Of a stretch of 42,438 bases of DNA, positions 12,493 to 36,304 are shown piece after piece (positions within the stretch are counted from its first letter, which is position 1; each line of letters opens with the position of its first letter). The stretch comes from a virus. The stretch spans positions 1-42,438 of IMG/VR virus record IMGVR_UViG_3300037504_000632. One strand, given 5' to 3'. The position numbers and the translations under genes were made by a program. The notes beneath the pieces are model-generated. The model saw nothing but the letters and a program-made list of their open reading frames with translations. It searched no databases and was not told where the DNA came from.

Positions 12493-12677
12493 TGGCAAAG
12501 CGGTATATCATCATCACGATTGAGAATGGCCGGGTGGAGTATGAGGTGGCAAATCTACCCCATATGGAGATACAATTGGCCCTGACCGACGTGATGCGGG
12601 ATAATCTGAGAAAATGGCAGGAAGAGCAGCAGGCCAGAAGCCGCCGATCAGAGGAGATCGCCGATGATACGGATTGA
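12492..12677 (+). CDS. Small tail-tip-associated hypothetical protein
   Basis: This encodes 61 residues, starting at the last base of the distal tail stop (TAATG) and overlapping the next gene by 14 bp. A short beta part (RYIIITIENGRVEYEVANLP) is followed by an amphipathic helix rich in Gln, Arg and Glu. I recognise no family. The coupling on both sides suggests it belongs to the tail tip, perhaps as a small assembly factor. Confidence 0.6.
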   Translation: MAKRYIIITIENGRVEYEVANLPHMEIQLALTDVMRDNLRKWQEEQQARSRRSEEIADDTD

Positions 12678-14982
12678 TCTGCTAGATCCGACCACCGGAT
12701 TTGTGGCCGGGAATCAGCCGATCAGGACAGCCAGCCGGGTGCGGCGCACGCTGGGCCTGGACCGAATCGGCAAATGGGCATTCGATGTATCGGTGGCAGA
12801 CCCGGCATTCGAGAATATCGAGGGTAGCGATTTTCGGGTGTATTGGGCCAGCGGAGGCGATACGCATCTGCTGGGCGAATGCAGCTATCTCGATCACGGC
12901 GTGCAGGCCCAGGCCGGAGGCGCGGCGGTCTCGGTGCAGGCCAGCGGGCGACTGCGAGATCTGGCCCGCCAGACCGTGCTGCAGCGATCTTTTGATGGAG
13001 CGACCGATACCGTGAATGATGTACTGAGCGAGATCGTGCCGCTCAGATCGGGCTGGTCTCTGGGGGATGTGGACACAATCACCACGCCCGCCCCGATGGA
13101 TTTCTGGTACGAGACGGTGTATGACGGGGTGCGGCTGCTGGCAGAGACATTTGATTACCATTTCCGGGAGGGAGCGACCAGCAAGACGCTCGATTTTGGC
13201 GCATTCGGGGATGATAGCGGTCTGCTGCTGGTCGGCGGCTCTCAATTCGCCTCCGTTTCGGGGATGCGGCGCACCCGCAGCGTGGCCCGGATCGAGCAGA
13301 TCGGGGTATCGTATCGGGGCGGAGATGTGGTCAATCGGTTGATCCCGTTTGGCGGAGCGGTCGGGGTGGCGACGATTGATCTGAGCGAGACGACATCCAC
13401 CCAGGCCGGATACCCGGTGCAATCGGCGGCCCTGCCCGGCGGGGGGAGCTACTATTATCTCGAAGATTCCGGCAGCATCAGCACGTATGGCCTCACCGAG
13501 CGGAGATTTTTGCGCAAAGATCTGCGGCCCATCTCCAACAGCCCGGCGGCGCGGGAGTATGCGGCCAATATCCTGTACGAGGCGACCCTTGCCAGCCTGC
13601 TCAGGCTGAAGGACCGGCAGATCACATACGATGTATCGGTGGCCGACTGGCAGCCGGGCCTGGTCCAGCCGGGCGACAAAGTGAGGCTGATGTTCCGGGG
13701 CTTCGCCCAGGCGCGTGACAGCAATGGCGGATTGACCTGGCTGGATATAGATGATGAGAGCCAGCCGGGGCAGGGCAAGGAATTTTATATCCTCGAAATT
13801 TCCGAGGAGTTCGGGGACGGGGTGCGGGCCAGCCTGAAGCTGAACGAAAACGGGGTCAGCGAAAAAACGACCGAGAATCTCTTGGCCGAAACGATCCGGG
13901 CCTTTGAAACGGCCCAGATCCACGTGCAACCGACGATCAGCCGGTACACGCAAGGGCCGTATGTGAAGCGGGTCTCCCAGGCCGATAGCGTGAGCGCCGA
14001 TTTTACAATTACGCTCGGACCGGAGACGCTCGATATCTGGTACGTGAAAATCCAGGTCGTCGGCGAGCCGCTCAAAAGCTCCGTGAAATCGGTGGTCGAT
14101 GACGGTGGCACGACGGAGACCAGCACCGATGATGGTAGCGTGGAACAGACCACCGCCGGCGGCGGGGGGATCAATCAGACGACGCTGGGGGGCGGGGGGA
14201 TTAATAAGACGACGCTCGACGGCGGGGGGATCAATAAGACGACGCTCGGCGGCGGCTCGATCAACAAGACGACCCAGGGCGGACAGGCCCACAGCCATTC
14301 ATTGACGCTAGTGGATCACGTTCACGCCGTGAATACATCGGATCATACTCACAATGTCACGATCAAGAATTCATTAAATACATCATTACCGACATTGCGC
14401 TACGATTCATCTGATAGCTCATTTCCGATCAAAAAAATCGGCACGGCCGGCGCGCCGGACGATGCGCAAACAAGTTCCAGTGACGGCGGGGAAAATCTTA
14501 CATCCGAAGACGGCGGAGGCACGACGGAAACATCATCGGATGAATCGACGCATACCCACAGCGTATCGGTAGCCGATCATACCCACAGCGTATCGGTGGC
14601 CGATCACACCCACAGCGTATCGGTGGCCGATCACACCCACAGCGTATCGGTGGCCGATCATACTCATAGCGTATCAATCGAGGCCCACTCCCACAGCGTC
14701 ACCATCCCGGATCATACCCACGCCACCCAGTATGGCATTTTCGAGGATACCCAGCGACCCGATTCGCTCACAATCCGGGTCAACGGCTCGATTGTTGCCA
14801 GCGGGGTCACGCTGGATGCCGGGAATGATTACACATACGAGCTGGATATTACCAGCGATATCCTGGCGGCGGCCACGCTGCAGCAGGATCACACAATCAG
14901 GATCGAGCCGGGCAGCGGGCGGGGAGATGTGATTTTTCAGGCCCAGATTCTGGCCGTCATCCAGGGGATTACGGTATCATGA
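12664..14982 (+). CDS. Tail-tip protein (Tal / baseplate hub-like) with His-x-His repeat fibre
   Basis: This encodes 772 residues. The N-terminal 400 resemble the tail-tip hub proteins that follow the distal tail gene (RVRRTLGLDRIGKWAFDV..., VSYRGGDVVNRLIPFGGAVG..., ITYDVSVADWQPGLVQPGDKVRL). Residues about 495-540 are a 10-residue repeat (GGGGINKTT type). Ten HxH motifs then follow in two groups, including seven in tandem units of HTHSVSVAD. The C-terminal 95 residues are beta rich. HxH pairs bind iron in trimeric fibre tips such as T4 gp37. The protein probably contacts the host. No peptidase motif was found. Confidence 0.75.
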   Translation: MIRIDLLDPTTGFVAGNQPIRTASRVRRTLGLDRIGKWAFDVSVADPAFENIEGSDFRVYWASGGDTHLLGECSYLDHGVQAQAGGAAVSVQASGRLRDLARQTVLQRSFDGATDTVNDVLSEIVPLRSGWSLGDVDTITTPAPMDFWYETVYDGVRLLAETFDYHFREGATSKTLDFGAFGDDSGLLLVGGSQFASVSGMRRTRSVARIEQIGVSYRGGDVVNRLIPFGGAVGVATIDLSETTSTQAGYPVQSAALPGGGSYYYLEDSGSISTYGLTERRFLRKDLRPISNSPAAREYAANILYEATLASLLRLKDRQITYDVSVADWQPGLVQPGDKVRLMFRGFAQARDSNGGLTWLDIDDESQPGQGKEFYILEISEEFGDGVRASLKLNENGVSEKTTENLLAETIRAFETAQIHVQPTISRYTQGPYVKRVSQADSVSADFTITLGPETLDIWYVKIQVVGEPLKSSVKSVVDDGGTTETSTDDGSVEQTTAGGGGINQTTLGGGGINKTTLDGGGINKTTLGGGSINKTTQGGQAHSHSLTLVDHVHAVNTSDHTHNVTIKNSLNTSLPTLRYDSSDSSFPIKKIGTAGAPDDAQTSSSDGGENLTSEDGGGTTETSSDESTHTHSVSVADHTHSVSVADHTHSVSVADHTHSVSVADHTHSVSIEAHSHSVTIPDHTHATQYGIFEDTQRPDSLTIRVNGSIVASGVTLDAGNDYTYELDITSDILAAATLQQDHTIRIEPGSGRGDVIFQAQILAVIQGITVS
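14146..14283 (+). repeat. 30-bp tandem repeat coding GGGGIN(K/Q)TT
   Basis: Four 30-bp units and a partial fifth code for QTT-AGGGGIN, QTT-LGGGGIN, KTT-LDGGGIN and KTT-LGGGSIN. The units differ by a few substitutions. The repeat probably makes a flexible or collagen-like stalk before the HxH region. Confidence 0.9.
14551..14727 (+). repeat. 27-bp tandem repeat coding HTHSVSVAD
   Basis: Six 27-bp units and a partial seventh each begin with the codons for His-Thr-His or His-Ser-His. Units 2-4 are nearly identical at the DNA level, which indicates recent slippage or duplication. Confidence 0.95.
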
Positions 14983-17591: not shown

Positions 17592-17885
17592 TCAACGAGG
17601 GATTAGACGAACACGGAGGGTGTCAAACGAGAGACGCTCCATATCGTCCACGATGTACCCTCCGCAATCCGTAGAGGTCGACACTCGGTGCGTCCCCTGC
17701 CACGATTCAGTGGGCTCCTTCTCCTCAGAGATGGAGATACCAAAACTCGTTTCGGTATCTCCGATTTTCACATCGTACCCATAGGGTACGCTCGTGTACA
17801 TCGAGTTCACCTCTATCAGGCGGACTCGATCTCCAATATTGAGATCAATATTGGCGGAAATATCCACGACTTTAATGTCTTCCAT
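17592..17885 (-). CDS. Hypothetical small beta-rich protein
   Basis: This encodes 97 residues. I chose the ATG at 17885 because it follows GAGGAGAAATAAA, and an in-frame ATG 42 bases upstream lies inside the hairpin element. It is acidic and beta rich (DIKVVDISANIDLNIGDRVRLIEV), with the segment LNIGDRVRL resembling a small barrel. I recognise no family. It is the last gene of the minus-strand unit that starts at the 18785 promoter. Confidence 0.65.
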   Translation of the reverse strand: MEDIKVVDISANIDLNIGDRVRLIEVNSMYTSVPYGYDVKIGDTETSFGISISEEKEPTESWQGTHRVSTSTDCGGYIVDDMERLSFDTLRVRLIPR

Positions 17886-17908
17886 TTTATTTCTCCTCTT
17901 CTTCGGTA

Positions 17909-17933
17909 GGGGCGCGACTCTCGCCACACCCCC
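17909..17933 (-). promoter_or_regulatory. Intercistronic hairpin before the ribosome binding site
   Basis: On the plus strand GGGG (17909) pairs with CCCC (17929-17933), with an inner GCGA / TCGC stem. It lies between the stop at 17987 and the AGGAG site of the 17885 gene. It belongs to the hairpin family that precedes most early genes here. Confidence 0.55.
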
Positions 17934-17986
17934 GACAAGATTTATTCTTTATCCGCCCCGGCCTCGCAGCCGGGGGCTTTTCGAGA

Positions 17987-18247
17987 TTACATCCGAGCCT
18001 TTCGATGCAAGGCTCTCATTTGGAGAATCTCATTCTCCAAATGCTCAATCCGCCCAGCAGCCTCCATCTGCCGGAGGGATGGTTCATCATCTTCTTCATT
18101 ATTTTCATCTATGAGATATATGCTGTACCTGTGGACCGATCCGTGCCCTCGGCCCATATTCCAGGACAAGCCTGGAAATTCCTCTAGCAAACTATCTATC
18201 AGGCTCGTGCTGATTTTCCTCGAGAACATCATATGAAGCTTATACAT
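17987..18247 (-). CDS. Hypothetical protein with helical C-terminus
   Basis: This encodes 86 residues with a clear AAAAAGGAGACC site before the ATG. The N-terminal half reads MYKLHMMFSRKISTSLIDSL, a central part has GRGHGSVHRYSIYLIDENN, and the C-terminal third is an amphipathic helix. I recognise no family. The 3' part of the gene holds two perfect inverted repeats: GAGCCTT / AAGGCTC at 17995-18015 and a 12-bp arm pair at 18017-18043. Confidence 0.65.
   Translation of the reverse strand: MYKLHMMFSRKISTSLIDSLLEEFPGLSWNMGRGHGSVHRYSIYLIDENNEEDDEPSLRQMEAAGRIEHLENEILQMRALHRKARM
18017..18043. repeat. Perfect 12-bp inverted repeat inside a coding sequence
   Basis: CATTTGGAGAAT (18017-18028) and ATTCTCCAAATG (18032-18043) are exact reverse complements around CTC. 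The repeat lies within the coding sequence of the 17987-18247 gene, next to a 7-bp one. Confidence 0.9.
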
Positions 18248-18267
18248 TTTTGGTCTCCTTTTTATAG

Positions 18268-18282
18268 GGGGCTAATCGCCCC
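18268..18282 (-). promoter_or_regulatory. GGGGC hairpin joined to a ribosome binding site (minus copy)
   Basis: GGGGC / GCCCC with a 5-base loop stands just upstream of AAAAAGGAGA. The surrounding 30 or so bases are almost identical to 23074-23111 on the plus strand, so this is a duplicated translation leader. Confidence 0.8.
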
Positions 18283-18302
18283 GGATTTTTTTTGCGGCTT
18301 GC

Positions 18303-18348
18303 GCCACAGTCCCGGCCCGCCACCTGAATGATGGGCCGGAAGCGTGGT
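18303..18348 (-). ncRNA. 46-bp conserved structured element, copy 1
   Basis: This is 45 of 46 bases identical to 22827-22872. It folds into a two-tier stem: CCGGCCC with GGGCCGG inside, and CCAC with GTGG outside. In this copy the outer stem is extended by a C-G pair where the other copy has T-A. It lies between the ADP-ribosyltransferase-like gene and the next gene of the operon. Confidence 0.7.
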
Positions 18349-18353
18349 GCAAA

Positions 18354-18785
18354 TTACCTCACTTCTTCGATCTCCCACACGTGGATCCACTCCTCTTCTC
18401 CATCTTCCGTGTCCACGTAATCCACCCTGTCCGAGGCCAGGGTGTACTTCCGGTCGTCAAATTCTTGCCGGGGGATCCAGGTCCGCCCGTTGTCCTTCCA
18501 GGCGGTGCGGATAAATTCCGCCGGGACATCCTGGTCGTTGACCAGGATTTCGTCAAACATCGGGATCTCGGTCGTGTCGAAATCATCGAGGTCGAGATTG
18601 ACCTCGATGACGATATCGCCGTATTGAAACGCCGCGCCCATTCTCGGAGTGAGCGAAACGCCGGGGTGGTCGCCTGCCCGCTCTTCAAATATTTCGTAAT
18701 TCACATCGGTGGGACGGCTTGCTAGGAGGCCGCGATCAAGAATTGATTGAATGTTTGAGCTGGAAGTTCCGTGATAAAGTTTCAT
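18354..18785 (-). CDS. Putative ADP-ribosyltransferase-fold protein (KptA/ART-like)
   Basis: This encodes 143 residues. MKLYHGTSSSNIQSILDRGL places His5-Gly-Thr followed by the helix 'SILDRGL', the first motif of the ART/Tpt1 fold. GVSLTPRMGAAFQYGDIVIEV (42-62) matches the second strand-turn-helix motif, and DEILVNDQDVPAEFI (78-92) the third. These enzymes bind NAD+ and usually modify proteins or nucleic acids. It is first behind its own strong promoter, so it would be made early. The fold is inferred from motifs only and activity is unproven. Confidence 0.5.
   Translation of the reverse strand: MKLYHGTSSSNIQSILDRGLLASRPTDVNYEIFEERAGDHPGVSLTPRMGAAFQYGDIVIEVNLDLDDFDTTEIPMFDEILVNDQDVPAEFIRTAWKDNGRTWIPRQEFDDRKYTLASDRVDYVDTEDGEEEWIHVWEIEEVR
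18529..18610. repeat. Two perfect inverted repeats inside the ART-like gene
   Basis: TCCTGGTC / GACCAGGA (18529-18547, 3-base loop) and TCATCGAGGTC / GACCTCGATGA (18583-18610, 6-base loop) are both exact. They lie in coding sequence and are not needed for a common amino-acid repeat. Confidence 0.85.
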
Positions 18786-18833
18786 TTCTTCTCCCTTTTC
18801 TTACCGGAGGGCCATCCCCTCTGAACTATCTAT

Positions 18834-18862
18834 ATTATACCGCACTTCCGATAGATTGTCAA
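18834..18862 (-). promoter_or_regulatory. Promoter P1 (minus), sigma70-type
   Basis: On the minus strand TTGACA (18862-18857) and TATAAT (18839-18834) are 17 bases apart, a perfect consensus. The spacer holds the shared element TCTATCGGAAGTGCGG. The transcript would begin with a CAGAGGG/CCCTCCG hairpin and then a ribosome binding site for the ART-like gene. Confidence 0.9.
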
Positions 18863-18919
18863 GCGCATTTACACGACTTTTGTTATACTTTCGGAAATAC
18901 GGTAAATTGGTAAATTCAT

Positions 18920-19201
18920 TTACCTCGGAGATTCCGAGGTATCCGATCCGTCCAGTCGGAATCGGACATAGGCCAGCAGCGGACTCCGTCCGGCGGCCTC
19001 CGCCCGCCGCGCGATATGCTCGGCCTCGCAGGCCAGGCAGATCGTCTCACCCCCGGCGACATCAGCCGCCGTCAGCGGATCGCCGCATTGGTCGCACAGC
19101 TGGCCGTCCGGTGCAATGACCTGGTTGGCGCATTTGGCGCATAGCCGCAGGTCGTCCAGATTGGTTTGGGCCGGGGCGGGGCATAGATCACATTTTGTCA
19201 T
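18920..19201 (-). CDS. Small double zinc-ribbon protein
   Basis: This encodes 93 residues. Four CxxC pairs occur in order: CDLC (4-7), CAKC (21-24), CDQC (36-39) and CLAC (55-58), enough for two zinc ribbons. The rest is basic and helical. It is the last gene of the RAD52-like operon. Small zinc ribbons in phage early regions often contact nucleic acid or host polymerase, but no target is evident. Its last codons overlap one copy of the CCTCGGA palindrome. Confidence 0.7.
   Translation of the reverse strand: MTKCDLCPAPAQTNLDDLRLCAKCANQVIAPDGQLCDQCGDPLTAADVAGGETICLACEAEHIARRAEAAGRSPLLAYVRFRLDGSDTSESPR
18922..18940. repeat. CTCGGA-N3-TCCGAG palindrome, copy 2
   Basis: ACCTCGGA and TCCGAGGT form 8-bp arms around GAT, the longest of the five copies. 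It lies at the end of the 18920-19201 gene, upstream of promoter P1 (minus). Confidence 0.85.
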
Positions 19202-19215
19202 CTTTTTTTCCTATC

Positions 19216-19245
19216 GGCCCGGCCAGGGCGCACCCCGACCGGGCC
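19216..19245 (-). promoter_or_regulatory. Intercistronic hairpin
   Basis: GGCCCGG / CCGGGCC, 7 bp, lies between the stop of the RAD52-like gene and the start of the zinc-ribbon gene. It is another member of the hairpin family between early genes. Confidence 0.7.
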
Positions 19246-19251
19246 ACAAAA

Positions 19252-19923
19252 TTACTCCTCTATCGGCAGGGCCTTCTCTTCGGCAAATTGCTGAAGCAAG
19301 GCCCACATTTCATCCTCTTTGGCCTCATCGTACTGATCGAAGCCATTTTCTCGCATTATTTTGACGGCCCGCATGACCGCCAGGCCCAAGTCGGTCTGCA
19401 CCCGGCGGAAAAATCTGGCCTTCGGCCCGTCCCCCTGAATGACCCTGCCGTTGGTGGGGGCGGGGGCGGGCTGGCCGCCGCCGTATACATCCGGGCTATC
19501 GCCGTACAGATCGAGGGCGACGCCCAGCAGCGAGGCGCATTTTTTGAGCGCATCGCTGGCCGCGGCCTTGAAATCATCGGCCAGGGAGATGATATCGCCC
19601 TGTCTGGTGCGCTTGACGGACGCACCACCAAATTGTTCTTTGGTGATGTCGCCGCCAGGCGCGTGAACCACCAGGCGGCCCTTGACGATGATTTCCTCCG
19701 GCGCATCGAGGGCCGGAAAGATTTTTTCTTCAATTACCTCGAACGACCAGGCCCAATTGAAGGCCTGATTGAGCGTTCGAGTGACGTAATCGTGTGACAC
19801 GTAGCTGAGTTTCGTCCCCCCGCGCCCCCGGCGGCTCTTCACGACATCCGCCGGGGTTCTCTGGCTCAGGACGGCCCTTTGCGCTTCATTCAGGCCATCC
19901 TGGGCGATGATATTATCCGACAT
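19252..19923 (-). CDS. RAD52-like single-strand annealing protein (Sak/RAD52 family)
   Basis: This encodes 223 residues. The block KLSYVSHDYVTRTLNQAFNW (38-57), a long strand-strand-helix stretch, then KEQFGGASVKR (95-105) and DDFKAAASDALKKCASLLGV (116-135) together match the RAD52 DNA-binding core. The C-terminal 75 residues are a flexible linker and a helix. Phage RAD52-like proteins anneal complementary single strands in recombination-dependent replication. I see no partner exonuclease next to it, but a RecB-type nuclease is encoded at 28841. Confidence 0.85.
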   Translation of the reverse strand: MSDNIIAQDGLNEAQRAVLSQRTPADVVKSRRGRGGTKLSYVSHDYVTRTLNQAFNWAWSFEVIEEKIFPALDAPEEIIVKGRLVVHAPGGDITKEQFGGASVKRTRQGDIISLADDFKAAASDALKKCASLLGVALDLYGDSPDVYGGGQPAPAPTNGRVIQGDGPKARFFRRVQTDLGLAVMRAVKIMRENGFDQYDEAKEDEMWALLQQFAEEKALPIEE

Positions 19924-20149
19924 TTTCGCACTCCTCTAGCCAGCCGATGACGCGGCCAAGTGCCAAAATGCCGCCTTCATCCTCGCATATCTCGCAAAAA
20001 ATTTCTGAGCCGCGTGACGCGAATTGTATCGCGCCGGGATCACCGGCCTCGATCCGTTCGGCGCAAGAGTGACAAAGGCACACAAGGTTGCCTTCATCAT
20101 CCTCGGAGTATCTACCTGAAAAATCGTAGTAGAAATTTGCTTTATTCAT
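19913..20149 (-). CDS. Small cysteine-rich (zinc ribbon) protein
   Basis: This encodes 78 residues. I chose the ATG at 20149 over an upstream TTG because GGAG lies about ten bases before it. CLCHSC (about 25-30) and CEIC (about 52-55) make one zinc site. It overlaps the RAD52-like gene start by 11 bp, so the two are translationally coupled. It may assist DNA binding, but I recognise no family. Confidence 0.65.
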   Translation of the reverse strand: MNKANFYYDFSGRYSEDDEGNLVCLCHSCAERIEAGDPGAIQFASRGSEIFCEICEDEGGILALGRVIGWLEECENVG

Positions 20150-20174
20150 TATCAATCATCTCCTCTTGGGTAAA

Positions 20175-20199
20175 GAGGGGACGGGGCTACCGCCCCCTC
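20175..20199 (-). promoter_or_regulatory. Intercistronic hairpin
   Basis: GAGGGG / CCCCTC and a competing inner GGGGC / GCCCC stem lie between the SWIM protein stop and the AGAGGAGAT site of the next gene. It has the same placement as the other early hairpins. Confidence 0.6.
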
Positions 20200-20208
20200 G
20201 ACGAAAAA

Positions 20209-20853
20209 TTAAAATGGGATGTCTTCATCGGCCAGATGAAAATGGCCGATCTCGGTGTCCCTCCGGATGGTATCGTACCCCGTCCGACAGGTGCATTCCC
20301 CCTCAATGCCGGGAATGCCGGGGAAATGGCCCAGGCCGTCGCAGTCGCCGCAGCGGACCGGGAACTCTCCGTAGTAGGCGAGCAACACGGCGGCGACGTG
20401 CTTGCACATCCGGCCACCGTACACGGTGACCGGGGCGCGGTGGGCGTAGTCCGGGCAGTCGCAATGCCATTCTTTCGGCATTCCGATCTCGCTGACCCGG
20501 TACATCCGGCCTTCCTCCGTCTGCGATTCCACGCGGGAATCGCTTAAAATGTGGCCGCCGATGAGGAGCTGGGCGGCCTTGAGGAAGCGGATCAGGGTGG
20601 CGGCCCGGACCTGCTCCTGGATATCGGCGGGGAGCGTCGGGGGGACGCTCAGTTCGGCCAGGCTCTCGACCTGGGCGGCCACGTCCGGGTAGTCGGTCCG
20701 GAGCGCCGAGAGCATTGCCTCCTGATGGCTGCCATGCTCCTGGACCTGGCCGTTGACAGAGAGCCAGACGCCCCGTTCGGCATCGTGGCGGACGGCGGTA
20801 GTGCTCTCTCGCTCAATAAGGGGGTTGACGTGATCGTTATTTTGTGCTATCAT
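20209..20853 (-). CDS. SWIM zinc-finger protein
   Basis: This encodes 214 residues. I chose the ATG at 20853 because it follows AAAGGAGATTAGTACA. Residues 131-152 carry C-x-C-x16-C-x-H (CDCPDYAHR...CKHVAA), the SWIM zinc-binding motif. A second cysteine cluster at 168-190 (CGDCDGLGH...CTC) resembles a DnaJ-type knuckle. SWIM domains bind DNA or proteins. In several organisms SWIM proteins act with recombinases. It is the first gene of the unit that also encodes the RAD52-like protein, which fits a role in recombination. Confidence 0.75.
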   Translation of the reverse strand: MIAQNNDHVNPLIERESTTAVRHDAERGVWLSVNGQVQEHGSHQEAMLSALRTDYPDVAAQVESLAELSVPPTLPADIQEQVRAATLIRFLKAAQLLIGGHILSDSRVESQTEEGRMYRVSEIGMPKEWHCDCPDYAHRAPVTVYGGRMCKHVAAVLLAYYGEFPVRCGDCDGLGHFPGIPGIEGECTCRTGYDTIRRDTEIGHFHLADEDIPF

Positions 20854-21286: not shown

Positions 21287-21930
21287 GGATCGTCCATTGC
21301 GTCGCAGACTGGGACAGGATGGCCCGCATTACGGAATTGAATGATTTATTCTACCCTCATTTATTCCTGGTCCGGGAAAACCAAATATCGTGGGGTGATG
21401 ATTCCGCCGCTTACACGCCGGACGGCCTGCGAGCCATCTGTCCTGAGTGCGATGATTTCGAGCAGGCTCTCAGGCTATTGCCCTCCTGGGGGCGGAAAAT
21501 TAGTTTCCGCATCGGGAATTTTGATTGGGCCGATCATCCCGGCTACAAAGAAATATTTCGGGATGAGATTATATCGCATCTTGATATACCGGATAATGCT
21601 AATCTATCCGGTGCTTGGATGGATGGAGCATCTGCTATATCTCCGAATGGCCCGGTCCTATATGGCGAGTGGGAGGTGTGGCTCAATCTGGATAGCATAT
21701 TCTCCATTCTATTTTCGGCCCGATTCTGGCCGTGGGATCATTCTCTCAGAATTACGAGCGAATTCCACATAATGGAGTGGAATGAATTCCGAGGGAGCAC
21801 TCGGTTGACTGGCTTCTACTGCTTGCCGGACGCCCTGGATCATCTCAAGCGGATGGAAAAAAGCCGGTCAGACTTTGATCTGATAATCCCGGATTGGGCC
21901 AATCATCGCAATTCCGAAATTGGCCCTTGA
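21283..21930 (+). CDS. Hypothetical protein, unknown function
   Basis: This encodes 215 residues, starting in an ATGA overlap with the regulator. It is rich in aromatic residues, especially Trp, and mixes helices and strands. Segments such as YPHLFLVRENQISWGDDSAAYTPDGLRAICPECDDFEQAL do not match a family I know. The coding sequence contains perfect inverted repeats at 21492-21510 (GCGGAAA / TTTCCGC) and 21588-21612 (ACCGGATA / TATCCGGT). Its stop codon lies inside the -35 box of the next promoter. Confidence 0.7.
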   Translation: MRIVHCVADWDRMARITELNDLFYPHLFLVRENQISWGDDSAAYTPDGLRAICPECDDFEQALRLLPSWGRKISFRIGNFDWADHPGYKEIFRDEIISHLDIPDNANLSGAWMDGASAISPNGPVLYGEWEVWLNLDSIFSILFSARFWPWDHSLRITSEFHIMEWNEFRGSTRLTGFYCLPDALDHLKRMEKSRSDFDLIIPDWANHRNSEIGP

Positions 21931-21955
21931 CAATCTATCGGAAGTGCGGTATAAT
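21927..21955 (+). promoter_or_regulatory. Promoter P4 (plus), sigma70-type
   Basis: TTGACA (21927-21932) and TATAAT (21950-21955) are 17 bases apart with the same spacer as P1 and P2. The sequence upstream of -35 is coding, so the upstream block shared by P1, P2 and P5 is absent here. It drives 22007-24565. Confidence 0.9.
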
Positions 21956-21969
21956 ATAGATAGTTCGGA

Positions 21970-21988
21970 GGGATTGGCCCTCCGGTAA
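21970..21988 (+). promoter_or_regulatory. 5' leader hairpin after P4
   Basis: CGGAGGG and CCCTCCG pair around ATTGG, within about 15 bases of the likely transcription start. The same hairpin follows P1 and P5. It may protect the mRNA 5' end. Confidence 0.8.
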
Positions 21989-22006: not shown

Positions 22007-22321
22007 ATGCAAGTTTTTGAAAAATGGATGATCGCCAGATACGGCGGAGATGAAGAAATTGAGGTTGAGGGGAAGGCCTGGGAAACACTCTTTCCCGAGA
22101 ATAAAAATCGTATGTCCCACCTTTTGCCCCTTGTCTCGTTCATCGGCGGAGAGTTGCCGCCGGTTCTTAAAGAACTCGGCATTACCCGCCGAGATCTCGA
22201 AAGTCTCTCTATTAGAGAGACTTTCGAAGTGCTAGACTCGATTTCATCTTTCTTGGCGGCCAAGAAAGATGAAATCAATCAGGCGGGCCATCTGGCCCGC
22301 CTGATTGAGGCCAGCAGATAA
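22007..22321 (+). CDS. Hypothetical protein with palindrome-dense coding sequence (paralogue of 35996-36304)
   Basis: This encodes 104 residues: MQVFEKWMIARYGG, then helical segments (LLPLVSFIGGELPPVLKELG, DLESLSIRETFEVLDSISSF). I recognise no family. It is closely related to the minus-strand gene 35996-36304, including promoter, leader hairpin and 3' hairpin. From 22146 to 22308 the coding sequence is a chain of inverted repeats, some with 14-18 bp perfect arms, so the transcript must be highly structured. The locus may act as RNA as well as protein. Confidence 0.7.
   Translation: MQVFEKWMIARYGGDEEIEVEGKAWETLFPENKNRMSHLLPLVSFIGGELPPVLKELGITRRDLESLSIRETFEVLDSISSFLAAKKDEINQAGHLARLIEASR
22197..22308. 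repeat. Three long perfect inverted repeats in a coding sequence
   Basis: Arms are 22197-22210 with 22214-22227 (TCGAAAGTCTCTCT), 22240-22257 with 22259-22276 (GATTTCATCTTTCTTGGC), and a 14-bp pair (AATCAGGCGGGCCA) around TC just after. All arms match exactly. Shorter stems lie upstream (GGCGG/CCGCC, GTTCTT/AAGAAC, CTCGGC/GCCGAG). Confidence 0.9.
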
Positions 22322-22327
22322 TTCATC

Positions 22328-22358
22328 GGGGGCGTGGCGGCCCGGCTGTCGCGCCCCC
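22328..22358 (+). promoter_or_regulatory. Intercistronic hairpin joined to a ribosome binding site
   Basis: GGGGGCG (22328-22334) pairs with CGCCCCC (22352-22358), followed by AAAAGGAG. Nearly the same sequence occurs at 35955-35990 (minus) and 23510-23540 (plus), so it is a repeated module. Confidence 0.75.
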
Positions 22359-22376
22359 CCCAAAAGGAGAAACGAA

Positions 22377-22817
22377 ATGGGTAAGGGATTGGGAGCAATC
22401 TTAGCAGCAAACGAGATGAGCCGAAAGGCGAGTCTCGTATCAGAAAGGCAAGCTCCGGCGTGCCCGCTGTGTGGGCAGCCGATGGAACACGAGCTGGGCG
22501 GCTGGTTTTGCCGCTCAGAGGATGACGATTACGGGGGGCAACGACCCTGCGTATTTCGGGCCAAGAAGGGCGTAGAGAAAGAGTTTTACGCCCAGGGCTT
22601 GGGTCATCTCTCCCGTGATGACTTTCAAGGCCAAACGCTGGCCGCCATCATCAAGGATGGCGAGCCTTTGGTAGAGTTGGTCACAATTCGGGGTAGAGGC
22701 GGACGAACGAACCTCCGCTTGTGGTCCGACATTTCAGATCACGACCTGCCCGAATTGTGCGCGGACGGGGAGTGGACCTGGATGGATTGGGCGTATCCAT
22801 TCAGGCATCAAGGGTAG
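22377..22817 (+). CDS. Hypothetical zinc-finger protein
   Basis: This encodes 146 residues with the AAAAGGAGAAACGAA site before the ATG. Residues 29-58 have CPLCGQPMEHELGGWFC and a later C, giving a topoisomerase-like zinc ribbon. The C-terminal part (LVTIRGRGGRTNLRLWSDISDHDLPELCADGEW) is unassigned. It lies in the P4 unit of unknown early genes. Confidence 0.6.
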   Translation: MGKGLGAILAANEMSRKASLVSERQAPACPLCGQPMEHELGGWFCRSEDDDYGGQRPCVFRAKKGVEKEFYAQGLGHLSRDDFQGQTLAAIIKDGEPLVELVTIRGRGGRTNLRLWSDISDHDLPELCADGEWTWMDWAYPFRHQG

Positions 22818-22826
22818 GCGGCTCGT

Positions 22827-22872
22827 ACCACGCTTCCGGCCCATCATTCAGGTGGTGGGCCGGGACTGTGGC
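22827..22872 (+). ncRNA. 46-bp conserved structured element, copy 2
   Basis: This is 45 of 46 bases identical to 18303-18348 on the opposite strand, in the same sense relative to transcription. CCGGCCCA / TGGGCCGG and CCAC / GTGG can pair around a symmetric GCTT/GACT internal loop. Outside CCAC it has GTA with CAC on the other side, where copy 1 has GCA and CGC. Confidence 0.7.
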
Positions 22873-22933
22873 ACAAGCTGGGTCGCATTGTCGCCGGGAG
22901 GCGTACCTGGGATCGTTCCCCAGGCGGCGATAA

Positions 22934-22998
22934 GCCACCTAAGGCGAGTGCGTGGGAGCCATCTGCGGCACCAACAGGTTCGATTCCTGTTGGTGGCA
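22934..22998 (+). other. tRNA-like fold lacking an anticodon arm
   Basis: GCCACC at 22934 can pair with GGTGGC, and the T-arm motif AGG-TTCGATT-CCT is intact with a stem of 10 bp. A D-arm-like GGC...GCC follows the acceptor strand. Only about 13 bases remain where the anticodon arm should be, so it cannot be a normal tRNA. It may be a relic, a tRNA-like structure, or chance. Confidence 0.3.
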
Positions 22999-23083
22999 AG
23001 CACAGTAAGGCTGATGGTGGCGGCGAAAAATCCGGCAGGGTGCAGTAGGCCGGTCAGGTGGGCGACGCCGCAAAATAAAATCC

Positions 23084-23098
23084 GGGGCGATTAGCCCC
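23084..23098 (+). promoter_or_regulatory. GGGGC hairpin joined to a ribosome binding site (plus copy)
   Basis: GGGGC / GCCCC with loop GATTA, then CCTATAAAAAGGAGA, is nearly identical to 18255-18290 on the minus strand. It precedes the ATG at 23119. Confidence 0.8.
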
Positions 23099-23118
23099 CT
23101 ATAAAAAGGAGAATAAAG

Positions 23119-23502
23119 ATGTACCATCCAAATTTTAGAAGTCTAACTGAGCACGGGGCTGAGCTACGAAATTTCACCCCTCATCCCCTGGTCGTGGTGG
23201 ATGAGGGGGGCAACGAGATCATGAATCTTCCTTCCGAGGGCAGCATTCGCCTTCGGGAGAAGATCGATGGCTGCCCCCAAGTAGTAGACGGAATCACCTT
23301 CGTCGAGAAAGAATACCAGGCATCCGACGATCTGCCTTCTCCCGAAGAAGGCGTCCTGATCGTAGTGTCAAAAATGGTCATGGATGCGATCTCGAATCGT
23401 CTTGATCTTGTCTGCCCGGATACCGGGCCGGACAGCGCGGTTCGGGATGCTGATGGTCGTATTGTGGCCGTGAAGCGGCTGCAGTACCGGGAGATTGAGT
23501 AA
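23119..23502 (+). CDS. Hypothetical beta-rich protein of the 'LTPH' type
   Basis: This encodes 127 residues. The pattern GAELRNFTPHPLVVVDEGGNEIMNLPSEGSIRLRE, followed by VLIVVSKMVMDAI and DLVCPDTGPDSAVRDADGRIVAVKRL, resembles a small bacterial family I know only by this pattern and cannot name. It looks like a compact beta domain. The gene contains a perfect 10-bp inverted repeat (CCCCTCATCC / GGATGAGGGG, 23177-23208) and a 7-bp one. Function is unknown. Confidence 0.6.
   Translation: MYHPNFRSLTEHGAELRNFTPHPLVVVDEGGNEIMNLPSEGSIRLREKIDGCPQVVDGITFVEKEYQASDDLPSPEEGVLIVVSKMVMDAISNRLDLVCPDTGPDSAVRDADGRIVAVKRLQYREIE
23177..23208. repeat. Perfect 10-bp inverted repeat in coding sequence
   Basis: CCCCTCATCC (23177-23186) and GGATGAGGGG (23199-23208) match exactly around a 12-base loop. 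Confidence 0.85.
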
Positions 23503-35178: not shown

Positions 35179-35886
35179 ATGAAAAAATTGATTGGATATT
35201 TTGCCGATCAGGGCCGGGCCACAAAACTGATGATTTTTGCTACGATTGTGGCGGCTCTCAGATTTATGCTGCTGCACGCGGTGGCGATTGATTTCAATCT
35301 GTGGCCGCTTTTCGGGGCGATGGAGGTGATGAGCGGTATCGCCTTCGCCGCCCTGGAGGGCGTGGCTCTGGCCTACGTCTCTCGCCGGTGGCGCAGACTG
35401 CGGCCATCCGGCCCGGCGGAATGGCTCTACTGGTCGATTCTGGCCGCCGGGCAATTCGTGCTATTGGCGGCGATTACCTGGACCACCGGAATGGCGTTTA
35501 TGGCCGTCCGGCAGGGGGTGGTGATTGACGCGGTGCTGCCTCCGGCCTGGGCCGGGTTGTGGAGTATGGCGGTGGCCGGGATCAATCCGCTGATCGTGCT
35601 ATTGATCGGGATTGTCGAGGATGATGATCAGATCGAGGCTGATCGGGATGGGGGCGGCCTGGTCATCCCGGTCGAGGTGCAGGCCGGCGTTTTCCTGGAT
35701 CAATGGGAGCGGTCGGAGGGCCGCGAACCGGCTGTCCCGGAGATGATTCATTATTTCCGGGAATCGACCGGGATCGAGCTGTCAATCGAGGATGCAGATC
35801 GGATGATCCTCGATTGGCGCAGTCGGACCGGGAAAGTGGGCGGGCGGCCCAAAAATTGGGCCAAGCCGCTGAATGGGAGGAAATAA
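35179..35886 (+). CDS. Polytopic membrane protein with C-terminal cytoplasmic domain
   Basis: This encodes 235 residues. I chose the ATG at 35179. About four hydrophobic helices lie in 17-150 (MIFATIVAALRFMLLHAVAI, SIAFAALEGVALAY-like, LYWSILAAGQFVLLAAITW, WSMAVAGINPLIVLLIGIV). An acidic and basic domain follows, ending in WRSRTGKVGGRPKN, a DNA-binding-like tail. I recognise no family. It is the last gene before a strong terminator. Confidence 0.6.
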   Translation: MKKLIGYFADQGRATKLMIFATIVAALRFMLLHAVAIDFNLWPLFGAMEVMSGIAFAALEGVALAYVSRRWRRLRPSGPAEWLYWSILAAGQFVLLAAITWTTGMAFMAVRQGVVIDAVLPPAWAGLWSMAVAGINPLIVLLIGIVEDDDQIEADRDGGGLVIPVEVQAGVFLDQWERSEGREPAVPEMIHYFRESTGIELSIEDADRMILDWRSRTGKVGGRPKNWAKPLNGRK

Positions 35887-35892
35887 AAAAAA

Positions 35893-35926
35893 AGCCCCCG
35901 GCCGCGAGGCCGGGGGCTTTTTTTTA
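35893..35926. terminator. Bidirectional intrinsic terminator
   Basis: AGCCCCCGGCC (35893-35903) and GGCCGGGGGCT (35908-35918), loop GCGA, have a run of A before and a run of T after. It separates the plus-strand unit from the convergent minus-strand gene. Confidence 0.95.
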
Positions 35927-35995: not shown

Positions 35996-36304
35996 TTATC
36001 TGCTGGTCTCAATCAGGCGGGCCAGATGGTCCGCTTCTTCTAGAACATCTTTCTTGGCGGCCAAGAAAGATGAAATCGAGTCTAGCACCTCGAAAGTCTC
36101 TCTATTAGAGAGACTTTCGAGGTCTCGGCGGGTAATGCCGAGTTCTTTCATCACCGGCGGCAACTCTCCGCCGATGAACGAGACAAGGGGCAAAAGGTGG
36201 GACATACGATTTTTATTCTTGGGAAAGAGTGTTTCCCAGGCCTTCCCCTCAATTTTTTCCTCTCCGCCGTATCTGGCGATCATCCATTTTTCAAAAACTT
36301 GCAT
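35996..36304 (-). CDS. Paralogue of the 22007-22321 protein
   Basis: This encodes 102 residues, closely similar to 22007-22321 (MQVFEKWMIARYGG, LLPLVSFIGGELPPVMKELG, FEVLDSISSFLAAKKD). Differences concentrate around residues 14-30 and near the C-terminus. The same inverted repeats are present in the DNA, one with 16-bp arms (CCTCGAAAGTCTCTCT around AAT). It has its own promoter P5. Function is unknown. Confidence 0.75.
   Translation of the reverse strand: MQVFEKWMIARYGGEEKIEGKAWETLFPKNKNRMSHLLPLVSFIGGELPPVMKELGITRRDLESLSNRETFEVLDSISSFLAAKKDVLEEADHLARLIETSR

Follow-up and report, generated by a model that had tools for sequence, protein, structure and literature searches.

Palindromes in a duplicated small phage gene as probable scars of template-switch mutation

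In the yeast Saccharomyces cerevisiae, template switching gave rise to clustered mutations in 39 genes, in which the arms of inverted repeats were homogenised and the spacer between them was inverted, and the mechanism is credited in that study to the work of Ripley in 1982 on phages (PMC8604942). Template switching also creates RNA hairpins in RNA genes (PMC8794818), and templated mutations are known in phage T4 (PMC3016281). What is described here appears to be a compact natural phage record of this mutation mechanism, the idea of which first came from phage genetics. One small gene is present twice in a single genome, and several palindromes, two of them with flipped spacers, are found there in both of their states. 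The palindromes and the differences between the copies are best explained, with a probability of about three in four, as the outcome of template switching in a small phage gene that has been duplicated, so that they would be scars and not a working RNA.

The small gene, its second copy and their palindromes

The window, i.e., the whole stretch of DNA that was analysed, is a virus record of 42,438 bases (IMGVR_UViG_3300037504_000632). It looks complete because it carries a 127-base terminal repeat, and the 42 kb genome looks siphovirus-like. It encodes a terminase large subunit, a portal, a major head protein, a distal tail protein, an exonuclease and a MazG-like protein, and it also codes for a Rad52-family annealing protein and a ParB-like protein. 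In a tail-fibre-like gene (12664–14982), in-frame tandem repeats of 30 nt (14117–14296) and 27 nt (14524–14739) are present. The only related phage found was G001 (IMGVR_UViG_3300005512_000112), recognised through its terminase (60% identity) and capsid (70%); its structural genes are syntenic, nothing in it matches the accessory region of the window, and it contains neither the small gene nor any comparable palindrome. Alignment of the terminase against genome contigs gave no match.

The first copy of the gene (22007–22321, plus strand) is recognised by an open frame with a Shine-Dalgarno sequence and by its codon score, and its 104 codons encode an orphan protein of 104 amino acids. No relatives of the protein or of its DNA were found in phage, viral-contig and genome-contig collections, and the protein has no Pfam or PHROG match at E ≤ 1. 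Upstream, on the same strand, are a consensus sigma-70-type promoter (TTGACA-17-TATAAT, 21927–21955) and a 5′ leader hairpin, CGGAGGG/CCCTCCG (21966–21984), which is common to both copies; downstream, an imperfect intergenic hairpin (22328–22358, plus strand), belonging to a repeated leader-hairpin family, lies directly 5′ of the ribosome-binding site of the next gene. The strong promoter cassette occurs four times in the genome (21926–21999, 36312–36413, 18790–18891 and 20892–20993), where it precedes different genes in both orientations.

The second copy (35996–36304, minus strand) is inverted relative to the first and encodes 102 amino acids with 89% identity to the first protein, a 6-nt in-frame deletion accounting for the difference in length. 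The promoter, the leader and the downstream hairpin are all present there, and the cassette is closed by an 18-bp bidirectional terminator-like hairpin (35886–35925). Since the homology takes in the ribosome-binding site belonging to the gene next after the first copy, and no gene is present at that place in the second, the latter looks like a copy of a locus resembling the first. Taken together, the gene resembles a moron, being a small accessory phage gene that is duplicated and served by a strong promoter of its own.

The chain of inverted repeats which the initial annotation had seen in the 3′ half of the first copy is real: P1, P2 and P3 and two small palindromes stand there in succession, all given here on the plus strand. 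A GGCGG/CCGCC pair of 5 bp (22145–22161) is near chance. P0 (GTTCTT-A-AAGAAC, 22163–22175) is perfect in the first copy only, with three clustered changes in the left arm, and the stem CTCGGC/GCCGAG (22175–22193) does not differ between the copies. P1 (22197–22227) is perfect, with arms of 15 bp and a 1-nt loop whose centre is T (A in the second copy); P2 (22240–22276) is perfect, with arms of 18 bp and a 1-nt loop whose centre is G (C in the second copy); P3 (22275–22308) is perfect, with arms of 16 bp and a 2-nt loop. Of the lengths given earlier, that of P2 was right, and the 14 bp given for P1 and for P3 have to be raised to 15 and 16 bp.

Both arms of P1–P3 are coding, and the arms pair in phase 3 in P2 and in phase 2 in P1 and P3. 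The codon score is positive in the annotated frame only, in the 5′ half as well as the 3′ half of the first copy; codon usage thus favours this frame in the palindromic half too, and the palindromes therefore lie in a true coding gene, so that an RNA gene misread as coding can be set aside. Protein coding alone, as had been supposed, does not yield such repeats: the summed palindrome arms (overlap-filtered) amount to 33 against a mean of 0.6 in synonymous shuffles, and none of 60 shuffles came near this value. Seven perfect palindromes with arms of at least 12 bp were found in lambda, WRightOn, HTVC023P, DSL-LC04 and G001, the five sequences used for comparison (about 231 kb together); six of them lie in annotated records, all six between annotated genes. 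Intrinsic termination was considered for P1–P3 and rejected, no T run following them on the 3′ side.

It is very unlikely that the palindromes are DNA-level sites placed in the gene, such as protein-binding, partition, recombination or replication signals. Perfect dyads of 31–37 bp would suit such sites, as would the ParB-like and Rad52-family proteins of this phage, but P1, P2 and P3 are unrelated to one another and recur in the window only in the second copy, the dyads are not the same in the two copies, and the related phage does without them. Protelomerase sites were likewise considered and rejected, no telomere resolvase being seen among the genes scanned. The palindrome cores and the promoter, searched as DNA patterns, had no match in viral contigs. 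An insertion of the Rickettsia type was also rejected, as the palindromes occur in the two copies only and in none of the viral contigs, and the copies are of equal length there.

Differences between the two copies

The copies differ at 20 coding sites and by the 6-base in-frame indel. The second copy had been said to keep the main repeats, which is right for P1 and only partly so for the others. P1 is extended there to 18 bp (not to 16 bp, as first reported) and has a flipped centre (36087–36123, minus strand, as for the following); P2 retains a core of 13 contiguous bp (14 of 18 pairs), also with a flipped centre (36046–36072); P3 and P0 are quasi-palindromes with 10 of 16 pairs (36009–36042) and 3 of 6 pairs (36142–36154), respectively.

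The hairpins, i.e., the stems in the 3′ half together with the intergenic hairpin, could have been selected as mRNA structure, serving transcript protection, translation pacing or a block on RNA-targeting defence. The strong transcript fold that had been expected is indeed predicted: z is −10.5 for 22146–22362 (dinucleotide shuffles) and −7.0 for the whole first gene (synonymous shuffles), and −7.8 for the second-copy region and −4.5 for the second copy against synonymous shuffles. Moreover, P1 and the inner part of P2 are paired in both copies, the two synonymous changes in P1 leave 16–18 pairs, and the accessory region as a whole is more structured than synonymous shuffles, the mean folding z being about −3.0 there and −1.4 in the rest of the genome (p = 7e-5). 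On the other side, all 15 stem pairs that vary are changed on one side and none is compensated, in a comparison of only two sequences; 13 of them are perfect in the first copy and broken in the second, and two the opposite way. In the second copy the pairing of P0, of P3 and of the outer portion of P2 is disrupted, Rfam gave no match at gathering score (those below it were taken as chance), and the differences are accounted for by templated copying from the opposite arm. The proposal that the structure is kept as a working RNA or for resistance to RNases is accordingly not borne out. The arms have diverged without compensation, essentially the pattern that the initial annotation had named as counting against its own reading, except that the encoded peptide differs at the disrupted stems too. 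Selection for mRNA structure is therefore unlikely as the main cause; an RNA role may nevertheless exist, since P1 and inner P2 are paired in both copies, though nothing beyond foldability supports it.

A four-point template-switch scan was run in both directions. From the second copy to the first, three events are found: 22276–22287 (left arm of P3) is the reverse complement of 22296–22307, with six substitutions; 22258–22274 (right arm of P2) is the reverse complement of 22242–22258, with four substitutions, the centre flip and the arm extension coming together; and 22163–22168 (P0) is the reverse complement of 22170–22175, with three substitutions. From the first copy to the second, 22212–22228 is the reverse complement of 22196–22212, with two substitutions, i.e., the centre and one outer pair of P1. 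The three events on the first-copy side account for 13 of the 18 aligned substitutions, and with the event on the second-copy side 15 of the 18 are explained, leaving only 22097, 22195 and 22310, all transitions. A second match in the direction from first to second copy reads the P0 difference in another way and was left out of this count.

In a null with random bases at the same sites, 13 explained substitutions were reached in none of 1500 simulations. Because a decayed perfect first copy would partly resemble a template-switch pattern, decay from an ancestral first copy by random substitutions was simulated as well, and 13 was reached in none of 2000 simulations. In the direction from first to second copy, five substitutions are explained if the alternative P0 reading is included (P = 0.06 under random bases), and a weak point is that the P1 event rests on two substitutions. 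The new tract of the first copy has a 16-nt template adjacent to it, and the alternative tract of the second copy has no other perfect match of more than 10 bases in the genome.

The substituted clusters thus match the reverse complement of the neighbouring, opposing arm exactly, with coupled centre flips, and the spacer is inverted at both odd centres: 22212 is T in the first copy and A in the second, and 22258 is G in the first and C in the second. At the divergence of about 2% outside the palindromes, two such flips by coincidence are estimated to be very unlikely. Transversions make up 11 of the 14 palindromic changes; of the six other changes in the gene, only one is a transversion (Fisher p = 0.018).

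A tract swapped into the second copy by gene conversion with an unsampled diverged homologue, the perfect palindromes of the first copy then being ancestral, could produce clustered one-arm differences, and relatives of this phage are all but absent from the record set. It would not predict that both 1-nt centres flip to their complements, it needs a separate event for P0, and no such homologue was found, so that this origin is highly improbable. An assembly or amplification artefact is the least credible of the explanations considered. The record is a single metagenome-derived one, palindromes are difficult for short k-mers, and the centre orientation could be mis-called if the assembler k-mers did not exceed the arm length; against this, P1 and the P2 core are common to two separately placed copies, the reading frame is intact, and no long inverted chimera runs past any palindrome.

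Under template switching, imperfect palindromes in the 3′ half of the gene would have been repeatedly "corrected" by the replication machinery. The growing strand would exit its template within one arm, take the complementary arm, or else the other strand, as its template for 6–17 nt and then return, so that a single event would perfect the arms and a switch across the centre would also invert the spacer. The comparison comprises two copies and no outgroup, for which reason we infer the polarity: the second copy probably retains the older state of P0, P2 and P3, and the shared older stems (P1 and inner P2) presumably arose by earlier rounds of the same process. The P3 peptide gives a suggestive hint in this direction, being a more regular amphipathic helix in the second copy, KKDVLEEADHLARLIE, and containing a glycine in the first, KKDEINQAGHLARLIE. 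All four substitutions outside the palindromes are nonsynonymous, so the protein seems loosely constrained or fast-changing; its C-terminal part is probably tolerant or fast-evolving, and for this reason the hairpins are likely to be tolerated by-products.

The neighbouring accessory region

Template switching alone does not account for the origin of the inner stems, nor for the palindrome-rich and unusually structured neighbouring genes. In the accessory genes at 17.5–24.6 kb, both copies of the small gene set aside, the palindrome arms add up to 67, where synonymous shuffles would lead one to expect 11.4; in the rest of the genome the total of 85 is close to the expected value of about 67 (totals of per-gene values). 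Either frequent local switching or selected structure would fit this region, and the excess makes local switching rates a testable question. It is also conceivable, though very improbable, that high regional switching, with strong promoters and Rad52-type annealing, is a standing diversification device, in which palindromes would be flipped and homogenised and short C-terminal peptides thereby repeatedly rewritten; it would persist through the benefit that small host-facing proteins draw from change.

Several further features were observed. Perfect coding palindromes of 10–12 bp occur in the accessory genes at 17592–20853 (minus strand), for example at 17833–17854, 18017–18043 and 18583–18610. 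G+C-rich hairpins, many of the form GGGGCG...CGCCCC, precede the ribosome-binding sites of numerous small genes by a few bases, with gene starts at 17885, 18247, 19201, 20149 and 20853 on the minus strand and at 22377, 23555, 23791 and 3076 on the plus strand; those at 22320, 23502 and 24220 have a common sequence, and the recurrent hairpins are possibly a common leader element. Blocks of 52 and 51 nt recur inverted (22827–23123 and 18243–18348), and between them a tRNA-like sequence with the T-arm motif GGTTCGATTCC lies at about 22933–22998, for which ARAGORN made no call and Rfam gave a tRNA-Sec match below threshold only. The small protein encoded at 18354–18785 (minus strand) weakly matches part of the PARP catalytic domain, and similar N-termini are found in six other viral contigs.

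Comparison with known systems

The locus is a warning that neither selection on RNA structure nor adaptation need lie behind strong hairpins in coding regions, amino-acid changes that come in clusters or a poor synonymous ratio. The Rickettsia palindromic elements also lie within reading frames, but they are a mobile repeat found in many genes (described in PMC6649704), whereas the palindromes here do not resemble one another and show no sign of insertion. In the mitochondrial genes of Nematomorpha, perfect palindromes with both arms coding are dynamically gained and lost and template switching has been proposed, as here; they reach 284 bp, however, and occur throughout the mitochondrial genes (PMC6649704), and the pattern of arms of tens to hundreds of bp with a depleted position-3-to-3 phase is not found in this gene, where the arms are 15–18 bp, P2 has phase 3, and the palindromes are mainly confined to one gene family and its region.

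The template-switch hairpins of RNA genes resemble those described here in that one event gives a perfect stem and the loop may be inverted, the difference being that they are kept by selection in RNA genes (PMC8794818) and the present gene is coding. In the templated or quasi-palindrome mutations of T4, phage replication likewise copies an imperfect repeat and returns, but those cases are scored mutants (PMC3016281) and this is a natural gene. The closest likeness is with the coding genes of yeast (PMC8604942), which likewise have short perfect inverted repeats, an inverted spacer, tracts templated by the opposing arm and several adjacent amino-acid changes, with five replacements in the 16-bp arm of REG2 and E89V, I90L, N91E, Q92E and G94D here. 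Unlike the yeast evidence, which comes from a strain tree, the comparison here sets two copies from the same phage genome side by side, and three to five palindromes with spacers of 1–2 nt are found per short gene. The locus is therefore best read as a new example of a known mechanism, namely arm homogenisation with spacer inversion.
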